Virus record (IMG/VR): IMGVR_UViG_3300022937_000164
Location: 1-22,254 of that record
Direction: 5' to 3' (one strand)
Length of the DNA stretch: 22,254 bases
Source of the DNA: a virus
Below are positions 1,151-22,254 of this stretch, in pieces; the first letter of the stretch is position 1; each line of letters begins with the position of its first letter. A program made the position numbers and the translations under genes. The notes under the pieces are model-generated. The model was not told the origin of the DNA. It saw only the letters and a list, made by a program, of their open reading frames with translations, and made no database searches.

Positions 1151-1666
1151 TTATTTATCTTTATCTAGCCCTTTGAGGCGTTCTAGTAGACTGTTTCTAT
1201 CAGTAACAACATACCCTTCACCGTTTACTATATCGCCTGTATCCGCAGAACTATCTCTATCCATTTTTTCTTTTTTAAGTTGTAGTTCAATCATTTTTAA
1301 TTTTTTATCTAGTTTTGCAGTTTTAGCATCAAGTGATGTTTTTAGCATGCCTCCAGCAACTTCAAAAACACGCCCACTATAACGACTTTCAACATTCATA
1401 CCAAGATCCATTAAGTCTTCGTATGCTTGCATTGCTTTATCTGCAACTTCATTTAATTCTTTGTCAGCTGCTTCTCCCAATCCTTTAACGCTAGGTAGTG
1501 CTGCTGCAATTTTATCAAATTCTGCTATGTCTCTAAAAGTTTTTTCTTGTTCTTGAACTTCATATTGCTTTTGATCAGCTTCTTGCGCTTCAGCAGTTTC
1601 TATTATTTCTTTTGCGTCTGGCAAGTTTAATAAATCTTCTAGTTTTTTTGTCATAGGACTTTCCAT
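1151..1666 (-). CDS. 16: Small terminase subunit, gp16-like
   Basis: The 171-aa size suits T4 gp16 (about 164 aa). The pattern also fits: a variable acidic N-terminus, then a long helical hairpin (about residues 66-134) with an FEVAGGMLKT segment followed by a Lys-rich helix, and a short C-terminal tail. In T4, gp16 forms a ring that recognises concatemeric DNA and regulates the large subunit gp17. No gp17 gene lies beside it here; the halogenase precedes it and a conserved 185-aa gene follows. The first ATG (1666-1664) overlaps the halogenase stop as TAATG. A second ATG four codons later (1654-1652, MTKKLEDLL) has GGAAAG just upstream and looks more natural, so the true protein may be 167 aa. 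Its last codons, GAT AAA TAA, coincide with the late promoter of the next gene. Confidence 0.72.
   Translation of the reverse strand: MESPMTKKLEDLLNLPDAKEIIETAEAQEADQKQYEVQEQEKTFRDIAEFDKIAAALPSVKGLGEAADKELNEVADKAMQAYEDLMDLGMNVESRYSGRVFEVAGGMLKTSLDAKTAKLDKKLKMIELQLKKEKMDRDSSADTGDIVNGEGYVVTDRNSLLERLKGLDKDK
1152..1159 (-). promoter_or_regulatory. T4-type late promoter for the 185-aa gene
   Basis: GATAAATA on the minus strand, overlapping the last codons and stop of gp16 (GAT AAA TAA). The predicted +1 is near 1146, an 18-base leader with AGGAT. Confidence 0.75.
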
Positions 1667-3141
1667 TATATGCTATTATTATTTAGCACATGTTGCATGA
1701 ACTTTTGATATCTTAAATTAAATTCGTAAGTTTTGTGTACATTTTGTTGCACTGTTGATAAACGATCTTTCCATGACGCAATTTTATCTGCTGATAAAAT
1801 TAGACTATTTTTTACAACCTCTTTTGACAGTACATTTGTACCTGCTAATACATATATCCATAAATCGTAGCCTGCAAAGCCAAACTTGTAATCAAAGTCT
1901 TTAGCAGTAGGCATTCTATATTTGCATAAGTCTTTTATTTGTTTAATTGCATCTGTATCTATTTCTCCACTTGAAACGTAACGCCAAAATTCAGAATCAG
2001 TTCTATTACCTTGATAGTGTAAATTTAAAAAATCTTTAAAGTTATCGTACATTAGTCCAACATCATAATTATATTGATATACATTAGATTCGTTATGATT
2101 GTATGAAGGTGTTTCTGTAATACTGTCAAAAACAAACTTTATTAGTTGTACTATTGTTGAGTGTATACTTGTTGCTTCTAGCGGTTCTGCAAATGCTGCT
2201 GATAACCCTATTGCTAGGCAATTTTTATTCCAAAATTTGTCAAGTCTACCTGTATCAAATTTTAATATTCTTATAGGATCAATGCTGTGTCCTAGTACAG
2301 TTTCTATTTCTTCTTGTGCTTTATCTGGTGTTGTAAATCTATCATCAAAAACATATCCGCAACCTATACGTTCTGTTGTTGGTATTTGCCACATCCAGCC
2401 AGCTGTTTGTGCCCAAGCAGTTGTCCAAGGTTCAAACTTTTCTTTGCTAGGAATTAAAAAAGGCATAGCACTGTTTACTGGTAAATTGTAACTGTAACTT
2501 TGCCATTTGGAATCTGTAAGCACTCTTGCAAATCCTGTTGCATCTATGAAAAAATCACCTTCTATATTTGTATTGTTGTCTAAATCTAAACTAGTAATAA
2601 AACCTTGCTCGTTTCTGTTTACAGATTTTACTACGGCATCAATTGTTGTTGCATTAGATCTTTTTGCAAAAAATTGGCCAACTTTGTGTGCGTCAAAATG
2701 AAAACTAAAGCTACTATCTATAAATGTTTTACCGTTATAAGGACTATAATCATTATCATACATTATGCCTAAATTAGCACTAGTATGCGTATTACCTTCT
2801 AAATATTGTAATGCAAAAAAGTAATCTTTAATACTGGTTGCAGTATCACTACCTCCTAACGGTCCAAAATAATCAGTTCCTGGGCCTGTCCAATCTTTAT
2901 GCTTTATCCCGTACTTTAGTGTACTACCAGTTTCACGCATAAAATCTAATATGCTAAAATCAACCTCAAATAAATTACCATCAAGAATAGATGTAAGTAA
3001 GCCTGTACTGCCTTCGCCTGCTCCTACTATACCTATTTTACTAGATTCGATTACTGTAATTTTATGACTTGGTTGGACTTTGTTTAACATAAATGCTGCA
3101 AGCCAGCCTGCTGTGCCGCCGCCCACTATTACTATGTGCAT
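1666..3141 (-). CDS. Flavin-dependent (tryptophan-halogenase family) halogenase
   Basis: The family oxidises halide with FADH2 and O2; the resulting hypohalous acid is guided by an active-site lysine to an electron-rich substrate. Visible signatures: N-terminal FAD-binding GGGTAGW (residues 7-13); a lysine at position 80 in YGIKHKDW that aligns with the catalytic Lys79 of PrnA/RebH; the family-specific WxWxIP motif (Trp249-Met-Trp251-Gln-Ile253-Pro254); and an EPLE segment (319-322) in the region that carries the catalytic glutamate. The 491-aa length is close to the family norm of about 500-540, and no frame break is seen. The gene sits inside the packaging/head-completion cluster between gp4 and gp16. 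It has its own late promoter (3167-3174) and a CGGAG Shine-Dalgarno. A cyanophage relative, VirX1, has been shown to halogenate, with a preference for iodide. Substrate and halide here are unknown. Confidence 0.93.
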   Translation of the reverse strand: MHIVIVGGGTAGWLAAFMLNKVQPSHKITVIESSKIGIVGAGEGSTGLLTSILDGNLFEVDFSILDFMRETGSTLKYGIKHKDWTGPGTDYFGPLGGSDTATSIKDYFFALQYLEGNTHTSANLGIMYDNDYSPYNGKTFIDSSFSFHFDAHKVGQFFAKRSNATTIDAVVKSVNRNEQGFITSLDLDNNTNIEGDFFIDATGFARVLTDSKWQSYSYNLPVNSAMPFLIPSKEKFEPWTTAWAQTAGWMWQIPTTERIGCGYVFDDRFTTPDKAQEEIETVLGHSIDPIRILKFDTGRLDKFWNKNCLAIGLSAAFAEPLEATSIHSTIVQLIKFVFDSITETPSYNHNESNVYQYNYDVGLMYDNFKDFLNLHYQGNRTDSEFWRYVSSGEIDTDAIKQIKDLCKYRMPTAKDFDYKFGFAGYDLWIYVLAGTNVLSKEVVKNSLILSADKIASWKDRLSTVQQNVHKTYEFNLRYQKFMQHVLNNNSI

Positions 3142-11580: not shown

Positions 11581-11597
11581 ATATATTCTCCACATAG

Positions 11598-11605
11598 TAT
11601 TTATC
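11598..11605 (-). promoter_or_regulatory. T4-type late promoter for the gp13-like unit
   Basis: GATAAATA on the minus strand. The predicted +1 is near 11592, a 12-base leader with GGAG. It forms the left arm of a 9-bp palindrome with the gp14 promoter. Confidence 0.8.
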
Positions 11606-11610
11606 GTTAC

Positions 11611-11618
11611 GATAAATA
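11611..11618 (+). promoter_or_regulatory. T4-type late promoter for gp14
   Basis: GATAAATA on the plus strand, five bases (TGTAT) before the ATG at 11624. The predicted +1 is therefore the first base of the start codon. It is the right arm of the palindrome 11598-11618. Confidence 0.8.
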
Positions 11619-15003: not shown

Positions 15004-15273
15004 ATGCTACCAAAGCTAAGAAAAGAATCTAAGTTTTTACAAGATGTTAAAACACTAAGAGATGAAATTAAAAAAGTAAAGAACGAATCTCTTAAAGAAG
15101 AATGTACAAAACTTGTTAATAAATTAGTTGACCTTGCAGATCTTATTGATGTGGGTCATACTGCTAACCCAAACGGTCATATTAAACCTGGCCTAATGCA
15201 AGATTCAAGAACACAAATGTCTATCATAAGACAAACTGTTAGACGTAAACTTGATGATTACAAAAGAGGTTAA
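15004..15273 (+). CDS. Small helical hypothetical protein (89 aa)
   Basis: I do not recognise the family. The protein is highly charged and predicted mostly helical: a Lys/Glu-rich helix (about residues 8-48, heptad-like LxxxIxxVKxxSLxxxC) and a second basic helix (about 65-89, MSIIRQTVRRKLDDYKRG), separated by a Gly/Pro/His loop (VGHTANPNGHIKPG). This is compatible with a helical hairpin that binds nucleic acid or protein. It starts two bases after the cupin stop with AAGGA upstream, last in the gp14 unit. Its TAA shares a TTAA with the stop of the opposing fibre-type gene, a convergent overlap of 4 bases. Confidence 0.7.
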   Translation: MLPKLRKESKFLQDVKTLRDEIKKVKNESLKEECTKLVNKLVDLADLIDVGHTANPNGHIKPGLMQDSRTQMSIIRQTVRRKLDDYKRG

Positions 15274-16145
15274 ATTACACTCAATCTTTTAAGTGTTATA
15301 GCACCTACCATTGATGCGTGTGACTGGCATTGATATCTATAGTTGCCAAACAATGTCTCACGTATTCTCCAGTAAAGTACTCCGCTTGATTTTCCTTGGG
15401 CACTTGCTCCTGTACTTACAGTACCGTCTGGTGCAACATGTACAAGGCCGGTGTTGTATGCTGTACCCGAACCGTCTTGTATTTCAAACGGATGTCCAGC
15501 TACATTAGTTAAATCAAATGCTATTGTTGTTCCAGATAATGCATAAATTGTAGGATTGTCACCCTGGTAATGTGAATCAAATGTATATGCTGTTGCACCA
15601 GTATTGTCAACTCTTAACATTGCAATTGCTGGTTCGTATATATCTGCAACAGAAATTCCTGCTGCTGTCGCATCGTCAGTTCCGCTAAAAGTTGAGCTTC
15701 CGCCTTCACCGCCAGAACCTGTATAAGCAATTGTTAGTGTATCTCCGCTAACCGAAGTTGAAATATCTGTGCCACCGGCAATTGTTAGATTGTCTGTTGT
15801 GCTATCTGCTGTTGTAGAACCTGTATCGCCTGTGATAGTTGCCCAAAGATTCTGTTCAACGCCACCACCGCCGTCGCCGCCGGTGCCTGTGTAATTAATT
15901 GTTAAAGTATCATCTGTAATACTTGTGGCAATATCGGTGCCACCTGCTATTGTTAAAACATCAGCTGTTGTATTTGCACTTGTCTGTCCTGTATCTGCAT
16001 CAATTTGTGTCCAAATGTTTTGTGCTACTAAAGGTGCTGATGCAGTTACAACATTCCATGCTATACCATCCCATTGCCATGTTGTGCCTCCGGATGTATA
16101 TACATCGTTTATTTCTGGTGCGCTTGGAAAATCAAATTTGGCCAT
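15270..16145 (-). CDS. Fibre-type virion protein with tandem beta repeats and a cupredoxin-like C-terminus
   Basis: A 291-aa protein in three parts. Residues 1-35 contain the Trp motif VYTSGGTTWQWDGIAWNVV. Two tandem 45-residue repeats (43-87 and 99-143) follow. Each opens with N-[IL]-W, carries a DTG turn, then LTIAGGTDI and DTLTI strands, and ends in a TG(T/S)GG linker. The C-terminal part (about 165-290) resembles a cupredoxin: GHPFEIQDG (His218) followed by YQCQSHASMVG (Cys273, His276, Met279). Such domains recur in fibre and structural proteins of marine viruses. A role as tail fibre or appendage is inferred from repeats and context. It has its own late promoter (16162-16169) and AGGAT Shine-Dalgarno. 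The first ATG after the promoter is used. Confidence 0.82.
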   Translation of the reverse strand: MAKFDFPSAPEINDVYTSGGTTWQWDGIAWNVVTASAPLVAQNIWTQIDADTGQTSANTTADVLTIAGGTDIATSITDDTLTINYTGTGGDGGGGVEQNLWATITGDTGSTTADSTTDNLTIAGGTDISTSVSGDTLTIAYTGSGGEGGSSTFSGTDDATAAGISVADIYEPAIAMLRVDNTGATAYTFDSHYQGDNPTIYALSGTTIAFDLTNVAGHPFEIQDGSGTAYNTGLVHVAPDGTVSTGASAQGKSSGVLYWRIRETLFGNYRYQCQSHASMVGAITLKRLSVI

Positions 16146-16161
16146 AATCTATCCTTTTTTA

Positions 16162-16169
16162 TATTTATC
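16162..16169 (-). promoter_or_regulatory. T4-type late promoter for the short fibre-type gene
   Basis: GATAAATA on the minus strand. The subtilase stop TAA (16167-16165) lies inside it. The predicted +1 is near 16156. Confidence 0.78.
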
Positions 16170-17760
16170 CTGCGTTTAAACTTGTATTTGTAATCGATGC
16201 TGTTGTAGTAACTGGTTGTTTTCCGTATCTACTGTATAACATTCTATTTGGTGATCCCATGATAGATACTGTATAAGCATCATAGTCATTATCTAGTCCT
16301 GTGCTATATAATACAGGTTTAGCATCATTTGTAATTGTTTCTAGTAATTTGTCTGTAGTAATATAAGGTTTAACTTGACAATGCAAACACAATACACCTG
16401 CAACCTGTGGTGCTGCCATTGAAGTTCCGCCTATATTTGCTAGATTGTACGTGCCGTCGTAATCTCCTGTAGAACTACCAAACACCGTTACATTGCTTGC
16501 TGAACTAATAATATCAGTGCCAGGTGCCCAAATATTTACTCCAGGTCCTTTACAACTACTTCCAGCAGTTTTATCTCTTGCAGTACCTGCATCATCTTCA
16601 GTGGCGCTGTCTATATTTCCTGTCATAAAAGCACGTAATGAATAAGGACTGCTACCTCTATGATATGCTTCTTGTCCGCCTCCCAAATCAACAGTGTTAT
16701 CATAATCTGCGCCAGTAGGAATATCAATTTTATGATAGTTATTTCCTGAGGCAATGCACACATGTACTCCTGCATCTATAAGTTCTTCTATATCTACATC
16801 TACACTTGCTACTCTTACTGGAATGTTTCTAAATTGTGTGAATCCGTCACTTAGTAAGGGTACTATTCCATATTGTCCCCAAAGTTGGAATCCACTTTCT
16901 CCTGCATAATTCCACGGTATACCTCTATATACTCCTCCTGTTGGATTAGTTTGAAAGCGTGTACCCGAATAACCCCAACTCATGTTAACAACAGTTGGAC
17001 GCTTGTAACCTGTAACAGGATCAACTGGCTTGTTGTTGTGCCATTCTTTAATTGTGTCAAAACAATCACTAACAGGTATTCCTCCGTTAGGATCTGTTGG
17101 TCCTTCTAAGCCGTCTACTTTCATTGCGTATATTGCTGCACCTTTTGCAAACCCGTAAGTTTTGCCTGCACTTATTCCTGCGCAATGTGTGCCGTGTCCG
17201 TGATAGTCTGTATAGTGATCTGCTGGCATTGTTCCTGGTAGACCGCTTGCTGCGTACCAATCAAGTTCTACAAGCCTGCTAACTCCTTCACTATCGTGTA
17301 GCTCTGGATGATCTGCTTGTATGCCAGTATCTTGTATTACAATATCTACACCTGTACCGTCTAGTGCATATTCATAGTTCTGATCTGTAGGGTTAGAACC
17401 GGCACCGTAAATATTTGTTTCAGCATTAACTCTGCGTAAGCCCCAATTAGCTCTTCCATTATCAGGATCAGAGGTTTTAGTAAAATCAAATGTTTGAGTT
17501 AAGTTTAATCCTATTTTTATATCGTCTCTATGTTGTGGCGGAATTTCAACTTCTAACACTCTTGGGTCATTGCGTAATTCTGCTGCTTCTTCGTCAGTAA
17601 GCATCCAATGTGTCATACGCTTTGATCCTGGTCGCGGATTTGCTACAAGCACTGATCTAGCAGGTATTGGACCTGCGCCTGTTTCGGCAGCAAGTTCTGC
17701 ATCAAAGGCTGCTAAATCAACATCTTTGTTTACAATAACAATATATTCTTTTTCAGTCAT
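16165..17760 (-). CDS. Subtilisin-like serine protease (peptidase S8)
   Basis: A 531-aa protein with a complete S8 triad: Asp144 in VIQDTGIQADHPEL, His189 in YHGHGTHCAG, Ser447 in GGTSMAAPQVAG, and the oxyanion Asn340 in IASGNN. Residues 1-75 look like an inhibitor-I9-type propeptide (YIVIVNK at the start, then LTDEEAAELRNDPRVLEVE), so autoprocessing is expected. There is no signal peptide; the enzyme would act in the infected cell or as part of the virion. An insertion at about 215-320 includes the GYKRPTVVNMSWGYSG strand of the fold. It lies between the two fibre-type genes with a TAAGGTAAGTTATG junction, one unit from the 19035 promoter. Fibre or prohead maturation, or host-surface cleavage, are possible roles (inference). 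Confidence 0.92.
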   Translation of the reverse strand: MTEKEYIVIVNKDVDLAAFDAELAAETGAGPIPARSVLVANPRPGSKRMTHWMLTDEEAAELRNDPRVLEVEIPPQHRDDIKIGLNLTQTFDFTKTSDPDNGRANWGLRRVNAETNIYGAGSNPTDQNYEYALDGTGVDIVIQDTGIQADHPELHDSEGVSRLVELDWYAASGLPGTMPADHYTDYHGHGTHCAGISAGKTYGFAKGAAIYAMKVDGLEGPTDPNGGIPVSDCFDTIKEWHNNKPVDPVTGYKRPTVVNMSWGYSGTRFQTNPTGGVYRGIPWNYAGESGFQLWGQYGIVPLLSDGFTQFRNIPVRVASVDVDIEELIDAGVHVCIASGNNYHKIDIPTGADYDNTVDLGGGQEAYHRGSSPYSLRAFMTGNIDSATEDDAGTARDKTAGSSCKGPGVNIWAPGTDIISSASNVTVFGSSTGDYDGTYNLANIGGTSMAAPQVAGVLCLHCQVKPYITTDKLLETITNDAKPVLYSTGLDNDYDAYTVSIMGSPNRMLYSRYGKQPVTTTASITNTSLNAG

Positions 17761-17768
17761 AACTTACC

Positions 17769-19013
17769 TTAAACTATCGGCTCTGTACTCACAATAACCC
17801 ACGAACCGTTTACATACATTTCAGGACGATTATTTTGAGAGTTATAAATCAAATCGCCGTTCACTGCTGCAATTGCATCTCTTCCAGTGTCGTCAAAACT
17901 TGGTAATCTAAAAGGTCCGCTAGTTACAATCACTCCGTCTGGAGCAGTTAATGTAAGACTGCTTGCACTTTCAAGCACAGCAGCACCAACACCGCTGTTA
18001 GTAAAACTCGGTGCTGTGACACTATTAAATGTTACATCATCTGTAGTGTTAAGATCTTGGTCGTATGTAGCGCCGCCGCCACCAGTTGCAGCAATAGTAA
18101 TTGTATTTCCTGCATCATCTGCGGTAAGTGTTACGTTGGAACCTGCTACAAAAGTAAGTTCGTCTGCACTATCACTGGGCGCAAGTGTTGTTGTGTCTAC
18201 AGTAAATTGTGTAAATGCATTTGTCTGCGGAACACTAGGCTGCACCCAAAATTCGTCTCCTGATTCATCATCTGACCTAATGTAAAGTACACCTGTCGAA
18301 TTGTTAAACCAAATATTACCTACTACTGGTTCTTCTGGTGCTGTTTCACCTACTGCAATACTTGCTGCTTCTGCTGCACCTCCGCCAGGTTCAACAACAG
18401 AAATAGTGTTACCCATATTTAAATGTCTAGAACAATAATAGTATAGTGTAGTTGGAGTATCTGCTGTAACTAATAAAAATACTTTACGTTCTGTTGCCGC
18501 AGCAAACTTTGAACCGTTATAAATTTCTTTTGTAACTTCTTTGCCGTCTAGTTGATACTTAACATTTGTTTCGTACACAGTGCCTGCGCCTAGTTCCCCG
18601 TTAGGATCGTCTGCACTTAAATTAATCGGATGCTGATTGTTTGCTCCACCTTCTGGATTTGGATAGTACTCGTTAGTTTGATTGCTTTGATCAAACACAT
18701 AGGTATATCCCATAACCATTTGTAATTCAGGCTTGTAAACACCACTAAGAATATATTTGTTGCCTGTATCAACTCCTTGCGGACCAGCTACTGTAACTGT
18801 ATACTCTAAACTTGCAACACCGTTTGTGCCAAGTATTGTGGATATGTTAGCATCACTTACAACAGTAAATCCGCCTCGATTGTTTCCGTCATACAGACGA
18901 AGTGTGTTTTCATCTCTGTTAAAAAATATTTCACCACTAGCCCCTACGATTCTATTTAAAAAATTCTCATCGCGTGGAATAATTCTGATACTGTTTGTAA
19001 TAGATTGTGCCAT
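17769..19013 (-). CDS. Fibre-type virion protein with cupredoxin-like domain and Trp motifs
   Basis: A 414-aa protein. Residues 14-50 hold FLNRIVGASGEIFFNRDENT...RLYDG, the opening common in marine phage structural/fibre proteins (GEIFxxxxxxxLRLYDG). About 68-210 is a domain with His128 (QHPINLS) and YYYCSRHLNMG (Cys194, His197, Met200), a cupredoxin-like copper-site pattern. The motif GNIWFNNSTGVLYIRS follows (232-247), then a repeat (266-310) similar to those in the short fibre-type protein, then GDLIYNSQNNRPEMYVNGSW (386-405). I infer a tail fibre or decoration role. It has a late promoter at 19035-19042 and an AGTAGGAG Shine-Dalgarno. The ATG abuts the opposing gene's ATG in CATATG. The stop is followed closely by the protease gene. 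Confidence 0.82.
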   Translation of the reverse strand: MAQSITNSIRIIPRDENFLNRIVGASGEIFFNRDENTLRLYDGNNRGGFTVVSDANISTILGTNGVASLEYTVTVAGPQGVDTGNKYILSGVYKPELQMVMGYTYVFDQSNQTNEYYPNPEGGANNQHPINLSADDPNGELGAGTVYETNVKYQLDGKEVTKEIYNGSKFAAATERKVFLLVTADTPTTLYYYCSRHLNMGNTISVVEPGGGAAEAASIAVGETAPEEPVVGNIWFNNSTGVLYIRSDDESGDEFWVQPSVPQTNAFTQFTVDTTTLAPSDSADELTFVAGSNVTLTADDAGNTITIAATGGGGATYDQDLNTTDDVTFNSVTAPSFTNSGVGAAVLESASSLTLTAPDGVIVTSGPFRLPSFDDTGRDAIAAVNGDLIYNSQNNRPEMYVNGSWVIVSTEPIV

Positions 19014-19769
19014 ATGATAGTTACTCCTACTATGTATTTATTCAAAAAACATTTGCAGCCACACTTGGTTAGCATAAGTAGATATATGCACAATCACGCT
19101 TTTAGTAACTTCTTTTGCTGTCAAGATAACTTTCTTGTCAATCCAGACAAGGTAGTAGACCTTGCTGGTACTTTAGAATTTATTCCTTCAGAAGTACATC
19201 CAGGAAAGCGAACTGAAAACTTATTTCAAATTAATGATACTTGTAGAGAGTTTGCTACTTATTTTGCAAAGCGTATAGCAGACGATGTATTTCCAGGTAT
19301 GTACAACATGCTGATAGACATACGTTTTCATATGAATGATGTGTACGATGATGAAATGTGCAACAAAGGATGGATACACAACGATCCAGCATCTGTAGCC
19401 GGTGTTTTATATTTAAACAAAGATACAAGAGATTTTGATACAGGTACTAGTATGTTTGACAAAGTATCTCTAGGAGGATTTAAAAATCCTGATGTAAAAT
19501 CTAGGAATGATTTCAATTTAAATAAAATTGTATCAGACCAATACAAAAAAGACTTAGAAGACAACCACAGCCATTTTTATGAAACGTTGCGTAGTGGCAA
19601 CAAATACAACAGATTAATTGCATATGACTCGAGTATTTGGCATAGACCTAACAACTACAAAATGTCCAACGGAGAAAATAGATTGTCTATAATTTTCTTT
19701 ATTGAAAAATATGAATTCCAAAAACACAATAGTATGCTTAAGGTGCAGCCAACTTGGAGAGATGTATGA
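19014..19769 (+). CDS. 2OG-Fe(II) oxygenase-like protein
   Basis: Residues 39-230 form a double-stranded beta helix candidate with the ligands HxD (His122-Asn-Asp124 in GWIHNDP), a distal His210 (SSIWHRPNN) and a 2-oxoglutarate-type Arg223 (GENRLSIIFF). The VLYLNKD strand between them is normal for this fold. Such enzymes use O2 and 2OG to oxidise an unknown substrate. The start is uncertain. The ATG at 19014 abuts the opposing ATG in CATATG, and no Shine-Dalgarno is visible; an ATG at 19086 with AAGTAG upstream would place the start after the opposing late promoter and just before the conserved domain. The stop overlaps the next gene as ATGA. No own late promoter was found, so it is probably read from elsewhere. 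Confidence 0.78.
   Translation: MIVTPTMYLFKKHLQPHLVSISRYMHNHAFSNFFCCQDNFLVNPDKVVDLAGTLEFIPSEVHPGKRTENLFQINDTCREFATYFAKRIADDVFPGMYNMLIDIRFHMNDVYDDEMCNKGWIHNDPASVAGVLYLNKDTRDFDTGTSMFDKVSLGGFKNPDVKSRNDFNLNKIVSDQYKKDLEDNHSHFYETLRSGNKYNRLIAYDSSIWHRPNNYKMSNGENRLSIIFFIEKYEFQKHNSMLKVQPTWRDV
19035..19042 (-). promoter_or_regulatory. T4-type late promoter for the fibre/subtilase unit
   Basis: AATAAATA on the minus strand. The predicted +1 is near 19029, giving a 16-base leader with AGGAG. It lies within the N-terminal codons of the opposing oxygenase gene if that gene starts at 19014. Confidence 0.75.
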
Positions 19770-20395
19770 TTATAAAAAGCGCAATGTTTAATGTGCCAAT
19801 GTATAAATTTAAGGCACGTAATCATAAACTAATTAAAGAATACTTTCAAGATGAACTTATTGCAAATTTACCACCTAAGCCGAATGTAGATAATCTTAAA
19901 TTATACAGTGATTATTTTGGTGGCATAAAATCATTAGGTAAAGAAGTTTATGATTTGTATCAAGAAGACTTAAACGCATTCCATATTAAAGCAGGATTTA
20001 ATACAAAACTTAACTGGGCTAATAAGGTACACGCATGGTATAACATCGGTTACGAAGGACATATGCAAGAAGAGCATGATCATATTGGTGGATTTCCTAG
20101 CACAATTTTTAGTGCTATACACTATGTAGTTTTTAATAAAAACGAACATACCCCTACACAATTTTTAAATCCTATTCACTCTTTATTCTGGGGTAATACT
20201 CAAAATACATATCTTAGTGATAATTTGCCTAATGACTGGCAGAACAGGCAATATTTACCCGATGTAGAAGAAGGAGATATGATATTCTTTCCGGCATTTA
20301 TTAGACATAGTGTTCCTATGCAAACTTCTTCAATGTTACGTGCTACTGTTGCCTTAAACATAAACACCCACGAGGCTCCAAACAATGCAATTTAA
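19766..20395 (+). CDS. 2OG-Fe(II) oxygenase-like protein with H-D-H metal motif
   Basis: A 209-aa protein of the small marine-phage 2OG-Fe(II) oxygenase type. The metal motif region reads MQEEHDHIGG (His104-Asp105-His106), followed by a beta strand SAIHYVVFN; the distal motif is FFPAFIRHSVP (His181) with Arg192 in SSMLRATVALN. The arrangement and the EEGDMIFFPAFIRH strand are those of the family, but the first motif is H-D-H rather than a clean H-x-D. The start at 19766 is preferred over an in-frame TTG at 19754: the ATG overlaps the previous stop as ATGA and has GGAGAG upstream. It is a paralogue of the gene at 20987. Substrate unknown. Confidence 0.82.
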   Translation: MIIKSAMFNVPMYKFKARNHKLIKEYFQDELIANLPPKPNVDNLKLYSDYFGGIKSLGKEVYDLYQEDLNAFHIKAGFNTKLNWANKVHAWYNIGYEGHMQEEHDHIGGFPSTIFSAIHYVVFNKNEHTPTQFLNPIHSLFWGNTQNTYLSDNLPNDWQNRQYLPDVEEGDMIFFPAFIRHSVPMQTSSMLRATVALNINTHEAPNNAI

Positions 20396-20990
20396 TTTAA
20401 TTAACAGCCTTGCGGAACAAGAAAACATTTATGAATTTGAATGTTTTCCTAACTGGATGATAGAAGCAGGTGTTGAGCAATTCAAACACTTTGGGTTTGA
20501 ATACGGGCATCACGGAGACACACTAAGTGACGGTAAACCGTATTTTGGTAAAATGTTATTTTTGTTAGAAAGCAACCACGATATACAAAAGCCACACATG
20601 GTAATGAATTTGTGTGATGCAATTAAATATAAGCTGTTACCAGAAATAGATCCAAACGGAAAATTTGAAGGCTGGCAGCGTATTGCTGTTAACGGACAAA
20701 TGCCTGGACAAAGTCCTGAAAAGCATGTAGACTCTGAAGAAAACGATCTTATTTGGACTGCTGTATACTATGTTACAGATAGTGACGGTGATACTGTGTT
20801 TTACCAATCAAAGAAAAATCCGGATAATGAGATATATCGATCCAAATATAAACAAGGAAAAGTTGTTGTATTTCCAGGAAGGTACTTGCATCAAGCACAT
20901 AGTCCTACAACAGATTGGCGTGTTTCAATAGGAATTAGTTTTATGTTTAATACAAACATTAATAAAAAATTAAAGGTTGATGTAAAATGA
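20385..20990 (+). CDS. 2OG-Fe(II) oxygenase (prolyl-hydroxylase-like)
   Basis: A 201-aa protein with a canonical facial triad: H114-V-D116 in PEKHVDSEE, distal His169 in FPGRYLHQAHSP, and Arg179 in DWRVSIGISF, which binds the 2OG carboxylate. The intervening WTAVYYVTDSDGDTVFY strands match prolyl-4-hydroxylase-type phage oxygenases (YYVN...GGxTxFY). It oxidises or hydroxylates an unknown substrate (protein, nucleobase or small molecule). It overlaps the preceding gene by 11 bases and the following by 4 (ATGA), so the cluster appears translationally coupled. It is less similar to its two neighbours than they are to each other. Confidence 0.85.
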   Translation: MQFNLINSLAEQENIYEFECFPNWMIEAGVEQFKHFGFEYGHHGDTLSDGKPYFGKMLFLLESNHDIQKPHMVMNLCDAIKYKLLPEIDPNGKFEGWQRIAVNGQMPGQSPEKHVDSEENDLIWTAVYYVTDSDGDTVFYQSKKNPDNEIYRSKYKQGKVVVFPGRYLHQAHSPTTDWRVSIGISFMFNTNINKKLKVDVK

Positions 20991-21622
20991 GTGTAGAAAA
21001 ACTAAATTTATTTCCGTCTCATGTTTACAAAATAAAATGCTCTAATCATGAAAAGATTAAAGATCATCTAATGAAATTTGTATATCCAAAATTTAAAGAA
21101 AACGGGCCTAACGGTGGTGCCCAAAGTATTTTTACTGATTACATACCTAGCAGTGGAGCAATGGTTAATTGGGAATTTTTGCACAAACTGTACTTGCCTG
21201 ATATAAAAGAGCTACTTACGGAAATAGGGTTTGACTTTAGCGTTTGGCAGATGAGGCAGCGTAGTTGGTATAACTTTAGTACTGACAATACAGAAGAATG
21301 GAAGCATGATCACGTGGGCGGCAGCAGTACTATCAATTGGAGTTATGTACACTATGTACATTTGGAGGAAGAAAACGCAGGAACTATTTTCTTCAATCCA
21401 GATTCAAAAAACTTAAGAGCGTTTTGTCCAACTAAAGACCTTGCTTACTTACCAGATATGTATTTGTATGAAAGAGAGCAACCTCAAGTAGAAGAAGGAG
21501 ATATATTATTGTTTCCTAGCTGGTTAGAACATAGTAGTCCAGCACACCGCGAAAATAGGTTGCGAATTACTGTAGCCTGTAATATAATGTTAAAAACGCC
21601 CAACGACACAGACGGCTATTAG
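20987..21622 (+). CDS. 2OG-Fe(II) oxygenase-like protein with H-D-H metal motif
   Basis: A 211-aa paralogue of the 19766 gene. Motifs in order: a MRQRSWYNF strand, EEWKHDHVGG (His107-Asp108-His109), a VHYVHLEEENAGTIFF strand, then EEGDILLFPSWLEHSSP (His182) and ENRLRITVACNI (Arg191/Arg193). FPSWLEH is the family's typical final metal motif. As in its paralogue the first motif is H-D-H, so which residue supplies the carboxylate or second ligand is unclear. The start overlaps the previous stop by 4 bases (ATGA). The next gene begins eight bases after its stop with AGGAG upstream. Confidence 0.85.
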   Translation: MSVEKLNLFPSHVYKIKCSNHEKIKDHLMKFVYPKFKENGPNGGAQSIFTDYIPSSGAMVNWEFLHKLYLPDIKELLTEIGFDFSVWQMRQRSWYNFSTDNTEEWKHDHVGGSSTINWSYVHYVHLEEENAGTIFFNPDSKNLRAFCPTKDLAYLPDMYLYEREQPQVEEGDILLFPSWLEHSSPAHRENRLRITVACNIMLKTPNDTDGY

Positions 21623-21630
21623 GAGATATA

Positions 21631-22254
21631 ATGAGAGTAGATGACGATTTAGCTGGTATAAATATGAACCTCGAAGATAAACAGGTAGGTGTTTATATTT
21701 CAAAATTAAATGACTTTGTATTCAAGTCTTTACAAAAAGAAGCATTAGATGGTATCGAAAATGTACAGAAGTCTTCAGGAAAACGCCGACACGATTTACT
21801 AGACATGTTTGAAGAGGATTATCCTAAAGACATGTTTTTCCAGATGCCTAATAAGTCAAGACAAGCACTTGAAAATGAAGTTATAAACAAATCGTGGCAC
21901 TATCTAAATTTGTATCCTGAAATGTTGTCAAAAATGATGGTAAGTGATATTGAAGATTACACAGACGGAGAATTATGGATTGAAAGAAATTGGATTAACT
22001 ATCAAAGACCTACAGAATTTTTACCTCTGCACTTGCATACAGGATTATTAAGTTATGTAGTATGGACTTATATTCCGTTTAATTTAGATGATAACAAATT
22101 AGGTGCTAATGCATTTAGTGCAAGCAAAGACAGAGTAGGTAAATTTGAATTTGTTTATAACAATTCTTTAGGAAATATAAGAACGCTTGATTTGCCTGTG
22201 GATAAATCTTGGGAAGGAAGAATTGCTATTTTTCCAGCAGAAATGTATCACCAA
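21631..22254 (+). CDS. 2OG-Fe(II) oxygenase-like protein, C-terminus cut by window edge
   Basis: The first 208 codons are present and the frame is open to the edge; ATG at 21631 with TAGGAG nine bases upstream. The N-terminal about 110 residues are a helical, charged region (KSSGKRRHDLLDMFEED...) absent from the neighbours. The oxygenase part starts at about 113 with ELWIERNWINYQRPTEF, then LPLHLHTG (His134-Leu-His136) followed by SYVVWTYIPF, and ends at FPAEMYHQ, which carries the distal His207. The H-x-H form of the first motif, without the usual Asp, is recurrent in this phage protein type (for example HNHSG), so it need not mean inactivity. The Arg and the last strands lie beyond the edge. 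Confidence 0.8.
   Translation, partial: MRVDDDLAGINMNLEDKQVGVYISKLNDFVFKSLQKEALDGIENVQKSSGKRRHDLLDMFEEDYPKDMFFQMPNKSRQALENEVINKSWHYLNLYPEMLSKMMVSDIEDYTDGELWIERNWINYQRPTEFLPLHLHTGLLSYVVWTYIPFNLDDNKLGANAFSASKDRVGKFEFVYNNSLGNIRTLDLPVDKSWEGRIAIFPAEMYHQ

Follow-up and report, generated by a model that had tools for sequence, protein, structure and literature searches.

Five consecutive oxygenase-like genes

The virus record IMGVR_UViG_3300022937_000164, analysed here over its complete length of 22,254 bases (the window), belongs to a contractile-tailed marine phage and ends in five consecutive rightward open reading frames that fill positions 19014–22254. An earlier note on this DNA had read all five as 2-oxoglutarate (2OG)-Fe(II) oxygenase-like genes, and indeed each has both the motifs and a family match. 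Enzyme functions are assigned by homology throughout. The genes, with P0001 given from its probable start, are:

19086..19769, + strand: P0001, predicted DUF6445 (PF20043) oxygenase, HxD..H..R (PF20043 6e-8; structure model)
19766..20395, + strand: P0002, PF13759-type, oxygenase-like, HDH..H..R, paralogue of P0004 (PF13759 1e-9)
20385..20990, + strand: P0003, predicted phrog_274-type oxygenase, HVD..H..R (phrog_274 9e-23; weak PF13759 0.0045)
20987..21622, + strand: P0004, PF13759-type, oxygenase-like, HDH..H..R, paralogue of P0002 (PF13759 3e-11)
21631..22254, + strand: P0005, divergent PF13759/phrog_81 type, oxygenase-like, HLH..H, cut by the contig end (phrog_81 2e-10; weak PF13759 0.0059)

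The first four genes overlap as described (by 4, 11 and 4 nucleotides), and the fifth follows after a gap of 8 nucleotides. P0001 scores 33.3 bits against PF20043 (curated cut-off 24), and P0002 and P0004 score 39 and 44.2 bits against PF13759 (2OG-FeII_Oxy_5; cut-off 27), with P0003 and P0005 below it. The array thus holds three kinds of protein: a DUF6445 member, PF13759-type proteins (two paralogues and a divergent third), and a member of a family usually named 'DNA endonuclease V'.

The motifs previously assigned to the five proteins all hold (H-N-D in P0001, H-D-H in P0002 and P0004, H-V-D in P0003, H-L-H in P0005). P0001 and P0003 have the canonical HxD..H metal motif, invariant across orthologues; in P0001, residues H98, D100, H186 and R199 (numbered from 19086) are invariant in homologues. 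P0002, P0004 and P0005 have HxH..H rather than the canonical HxD/E, again invariant in every orthologue, and the solved relatives 3bvc and 2rg4 likewise carry HxH. Given this motif, the safe name for these three is 'oxygenase-like'. The distal His and the Arg for 2OG are present in P0001–P0004, the Arg being invariant in their families; P0005 has the distal His but the contig stops before the Arg, which its relative in locus L015 possesses. Such invariance of metal and Arg positions across orthologues means that the array is not a product of chance.

Structure models were made for two proteins, P0001 and one protein of the partner family phrog_7084 described below. The AlphaFold2 model of P0001 (predicted local distance difference test score, pLDDT, 90.3; predicted template-modelling score 0.86) matches double-stranded beta-helix protein hydroxylases with Z 12.7–14.1 over ~146–167 residues, including PHD2 (Z 14.1, root-mean-square deviation 3.0, 156 residues), OGFOD1 (13.8), Pseudomonas P4H (13.7) and viral vCPH (12.7). 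Among solved folds, protein prolyl hydroxylases come closest (Z ~14). No mention of DUF6445 turned up in the literature. The family phrog_1644 (for example L186:10974-11738) is called minor coat protein in phage databases, while P0001, its member in the window, has a 2OG oxygenase fold.

The family of P0003, phrog_274, has an invariant HxD..H..R motif, and the evidence says that it is a predicted oxygenase family for which 'DNA endonuclease V' is a misnomer. We rejected P0003 as a T4 DenV-type endonuclease V: it has no match to PF03013 (Pyr_excise) at E<=1, and seven of eight phages carrying phrog_274-type genes have a PF03013 match at another locus. Cyanophage phrog_274 genes such as L006:3679-4212 and L188:15415-15933 bear the endonuclease V label on an oxygenase-like sequence. 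This corrects the database names of both phrog_274 ('DNA endonuclease V') and phrog_1644 ('minor coat protein'), which are misleading.

The array is the left part of a conserved cassette

The array has no DNA-level similarity to known phages, and a same-species contig reaching beyond 22254 was sought and not found; the nearest relative, one virus represented by three assemblies (L015, L234 and L235), served instead. Scanning viral contigs with P0001 alone returned only one near-identical short contig, and with P0004 alone nothing; the P0003 alignment contained no conserved stretch usable as a query. Searching the contigs with relatives of P0004 uncovered loci with a larger block. These loci are fragments, and some blocks end at contig ends. 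The order is DUF6445 – PF13759 – (F3) – PF13759 – [halogenase] – P0005-type – phrog_7084 (three to four copies) – PF13759 – halogenase (one or two copies), found in L015–L020, L022–L024, L104, L105, L108, L109 and L111. In the nearest relative, P0001–P0005 are followed by three phrog_7084 genes, a PF13759 gene and two halogenases, the L234 assembly terminating within the phrog_7084 genes. The block is common to about 12 contigs besides the L015 virus, about 10 lineages in all, with P0001 homologues ~45% identical in the conserved-order loci. Judged by this order, the window's five genes make up the left-hand portion of a conserved series of some dozen predicted enzymes, halogenases among them.

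A tree supports the proposed paralogy of P0002 and P0004. One clade unites the P0004 orthologues (15 rows, support 100/99) and a second the P0002 orthologues (9 rows, 84/85). Together with a single further row, the two clades group (98/97) away from the cyanophage homologues, so P0002 and P0004 stem from an old duplication inside the block. The earlier note had named unrelated acquisitions, with no co-occurrence in relatives, as an outcome that would undo its reading; instead, the genes co-occur in order in about 10 lineages. This ordered co-occurrence and the in-block duplication support a multi-enzyme oxidation system. As for partner genes to the right, the additional oxygenases it foresaw are present in relatives, but the glycosyltransferases it also foresaw did not turn up: nothing in the L015 or L023 block was recognised as a glycosyltransferase, synthetase, ligase or carbamoyltransferase. 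Flavin-dependent halogenases and a family with a dUTPase fold (phrog_7084, DUF6065-like) stand out as the main partners.

The window encodes a halogenase of its own, away from the array:

1666..3141, − strand: flavin-dependent halogenase homologue (PF04820 6e-92; GGGTAGW and WMWQIP motifs; VirX1 4e-36)

Its orthologue (~50%) in L019, L020, L022–L024, L108 and L109 sits inside the block, flanked by the homologues of P0004 and P0005. The block halogenases match PF04820, with GxGxxGW kept, WxWxIP in most and a candidate catalytic Lys present. By its motifs the protein at 1666–3141 fits the flavin-dependent halogenases, with halogenating activity predicted.

The modelled phrog_7084 protein (pLDDT 86.5) matches dUTPases with Z up to 12.2, and one copy matches Pfam dUTPase at 8e-6. 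The PRSG motif of dUTPases reads QPFY-like in phrog_7084 proteins, with a motif-3-like Asp kept, and they probably lack dUTPase activity. Short versions of the cassette in L156 and L167 consist of a halogenase, one or two small genes and phrog_7084, then fibre-like genes, and in a Devosia prophage-like region phrog_7084 follows a gene that resembles a tail fibre by inspection (that is, identified without a family scan, here and below). Plasmid relatives of the family are annotated DUF6065; such homologues occur in L236 and 95 rhizobial plasmid records, and in Rhizobium sp. K102 one lies near an S8 protease and a sugar transferase. In L183 (5902-6771) and other Hafunaviridae, viruses of haloarchaea, a phrog_7084 homologue is next to thymidylate synthase.

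Genomic context in two phage lineages and in bacteria

The array has a structural gene as its divergent neighbour, which adjoins the cassette in L015, L234 and L235 as well:

17769..19013, − strand: baseplate/tail-fibre-connector-like structural protein (phrog_708 2e-14, phrog_677 1e-10)

The tail sheath of the window is 36–49% identical to those of jumbo phages. We considered and dropped a cyanophage (Kyanoviridae) origin for the window, since the sheath is nearest to those of the jumbo phages Agrobacterium Atu_ph07, Sinorhizobium Phosso and the Pseudomonas PA5oct type. Cyanophages nevertheless offer the closest known systems. Kyanoviridae carry arrays of 2OG-Fe(II) oxygenases (PMC3037559), with ten copies in S-CREM1 and 24 in S-SCSM1 (PMC9964418), which, as in the window, comprise several PF13759, phrog_274 and phrog_1644 oxygenases, often in tandem and near tail or neck genes. 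The window differs in its phage lineage and in having a fixed-order block with halogenases and repeated phrog_7084.

VirX1, the flavin-dependent halogenase of cyanophage Syn10 (PDB 6QGM; PMC8407142), shares PF04820 and the flavin-dependent halogenase motifs with the window halogenase, which is a distant homologue with a function predicted from sequence. In Syn9, a relative of Syn10 with the same gene pair, fibre-assembly genes lie beside the VirX1 locus, together with phrog_7084 and an array of oxygenases. Among thirteen halogenase-bearing cyanophages, the halogenase and oxygenases adjoin tail-fibre, fibre-assembly or large structural genes in nine (Syn9, P-RSM6, S-SZBM1, P-TIM40, Sf-FP1, S-RIM44, S-WAM1, S-CREM1 and Sf-CH11), and phrog_7084 comes directly after the halogenase in five. 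The 'collagen-like' neighbour in S-CREM1 is glycine-rich and matches fibre-assembly families. The predicted metabolite cluster of S-SSM6a (Iyer et al. 2021, PMC7824862) likewise combines a halogenase with oxygenases; it has carbamoyltransferases, sugar genes and a HemK-like methylase, none of them recognised in the window-type block, which in contrast has DUF6445 and phrog_7084. In L014 (AG-345-E08), a single-cell marine virus contig, oxygenases are interleaved with glycosyltransferase-, sulfotransferase- and sugar-enzyme-like genes.

DUF6445 and halogenases are also linked in bacteria: a strong halogenase match lies no more than ~4 kb from DUF6445 in four of 16 alphaproteobacterial loci, and directly adjoins it in two of the four. 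Some Alphaproteobacteria place these two families, both shared with the phage block, side by side, but no oxygenase array or phrog_7084 was detected at these loci.

A possible role in tailoring virion proteins

That the genes keep both their order and their partners argues for a single joint process. In our proposal, the phage's own virion proteins are the substrate, most likely tail-fibre or other receptor-binding proteins encoded alongside: residues in them would be hydroxylated by the three 2OG-Fe(II) oxygenase kinds and halogenated by the flavin-dependent halogenases. The several phrog_7084 proteins would assist, perhaps by binding substrate, and the modifications could tune or diversify adsorption or stabilise fibres. 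While the enzyme classes are well supported, with activities predicted from homology, this redox tailoring of receptor-binding proteins is a tentative reading, to which we give a little less than an even chance. Virion proteins are the favoured substrate because of where the cassette lies, next to genes for receptor binding, and because the P0001 model folds like a protein hydroxylase; of the targets named in the earlier note (virion glycans, proteins or nucleobases), genomic position puts virion proteins ahead of the other two. The wider claim, that at least two phage lineages halogenate and hydroxylate their own receptor-binding tail-fibre proteins and that this is the native role of viral halogenases like VirX1, we regard as doubtful.

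Several observations weigh against tailoring of receptor-binding proteins. Halogenase similarity, rather than random sampling, decided which thirteen cyanophages were examined; in three of them (S-H35, S-MbCM6 and S-H38) the halogenases lie away from fibres, and in S-SSM7 the halogenase and oxygenases are grouped with carbamoyltransferases and sugar genes. A collagen-like repeat domain, a target of prolyl hydroxylases, was not found in the ten relatives examined, and the likeness of the P0001 model to protein hydroxylases does not reveal its substrate. Finally, phrog_7084 is also found apart from these partners, on rhizobial plasmids and, next to thymidylate synthase, in halovirus HSTV-2.

Other substrates would fit parts of the same evidence. 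The related cluster of the jumbo cyanophage S-SSM6a was read by Iyer et al. as metabolite-making, S-SSM7 shares the arrangement, and the usual substrates of PF04820 enzymes are free tryptophan or small aromatics; the product of the cassette might accordingly be a small molecule that affects the host or competing microbes, namely an amino-acid or indole derivative bearing halogen and hydroxyl groups. We consider this fairly unlikely, given that the L015 and L023 blocks hold no recognised synthetase, ligase or carbamoyltransferase and that the block lies by fibre genes in most cyanophages examined. Modification of nucleotides or DNA, with the dUTPase-fold proteins binding a nucleotide that oxygenases and halogenases alter, would suit both the dUTPase matches of phrog_7084 and its place in HSTV-2, adjoining thymidylate synthase and near DNA polymerase. 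The replaced PRSG motif, the position of the block in the tail/neck region in both phage lineages, and the failure to recognise a kinase, glycosyltransferase or thymidylate-synthase-like gene in it make this improbable.

Decoration of virion or host-surface glycans seems quite improbable too, since no glycosyltransferase was recognised in the L015 and L023 blocks and the fold of P0001 is nearest to protein hydroxylases; in its favour, a P0005-like oxygenase stands amid genes that resemble glycosyltransferases and sugar enzymes by inspection in AG-345-E08, and sugar genes lie nearby in S-SSM7. That the array has no joint function, its members being independent accessory oxygenases that change 2OG/nitrogen status or act separately, would fit the roles that Sullivan et al. 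2010 (PMC3037559) proposed for the 2OG enzymes of cyanophages, namely adjusting 2OG levels or repairing DNA. The conserved order at ~45% identity, the fixed partners and the ancient in-block duplication speak against it, and we hold it to be highly improbable.

Tailoring of virion proteins would offer a single testable hypothesis for the native substrates of the viral flavin-dependent halogenases and of the many marine-phage 2OG oxygenases. The cassette unites these two enzyme groups with a dUTPase-fold family and often with tail-fibre genes, and Syn9, Syn10 and S-CREM1 are phages that can be grown. None of the publications found in our searches connected halogenases and oxygenases with tail fibres into a single system. 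If true, virion protein chemistry would be an additional layer of host recognition.

Start of the first gene and promoter-like elements

The first gene had been placed at 19014, which is probably wrong. This ATG abuts that of the divergent tail gene (CATATG) and overlaps the latter's promoter-like AATAAATA and ribosome-binding site, and it is lacking in L015, which is 67% identical. Homologues of P0001 begin near the ATG at 19086, probably the true start. Two late-promoter-like elements, their roles assigned by inference, lie in this region:

19035..19042, − strand: AATAAATA, late-promoter-like element of the divergent tail gene 17769–19013
19073..19080, + strand: CATAAGTA, late-promoter-like element 13 nucleotides before the 19086 ATG, recurring in relatives

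The NATAAGTA element 13 nucleotides before 19086 differs by one base from NATAAATA, found upstream of other window genes, and recurs just upstream of the P0001-homologue start in L015, L016, L026 and L105 (five of five operon-leading loci, the window included). Of the 11 NATAAATA sites in the window, nine lie 7–44 nucleotides upstream of gene starts on the correct strand, though their total number is not above chance. In view of the recurrent NATAAGTA and these sites, the claim that no late promoter precedes the array is insecure, and the promoter elements lend no support to a timing separate from the flanking late genes.

Other features of the window

A CxxHxxM stretch (YYYCSRHLNMGNTI, YRYQCQSHASMVGAI) that resembles a cupredoxin copper site occurs in the tail/baseplate-like proteins at 17769–19013 and 15270–16145 (both − strand). 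Flanked by two tail-protein genes, 16165–17760 (− strand) appears by inspection to encode a subtilisin-like (S8) serine protease. GATAAATA is present on both strands within the 22-nucleotide gap that separates divergent genes at 11596–11617.

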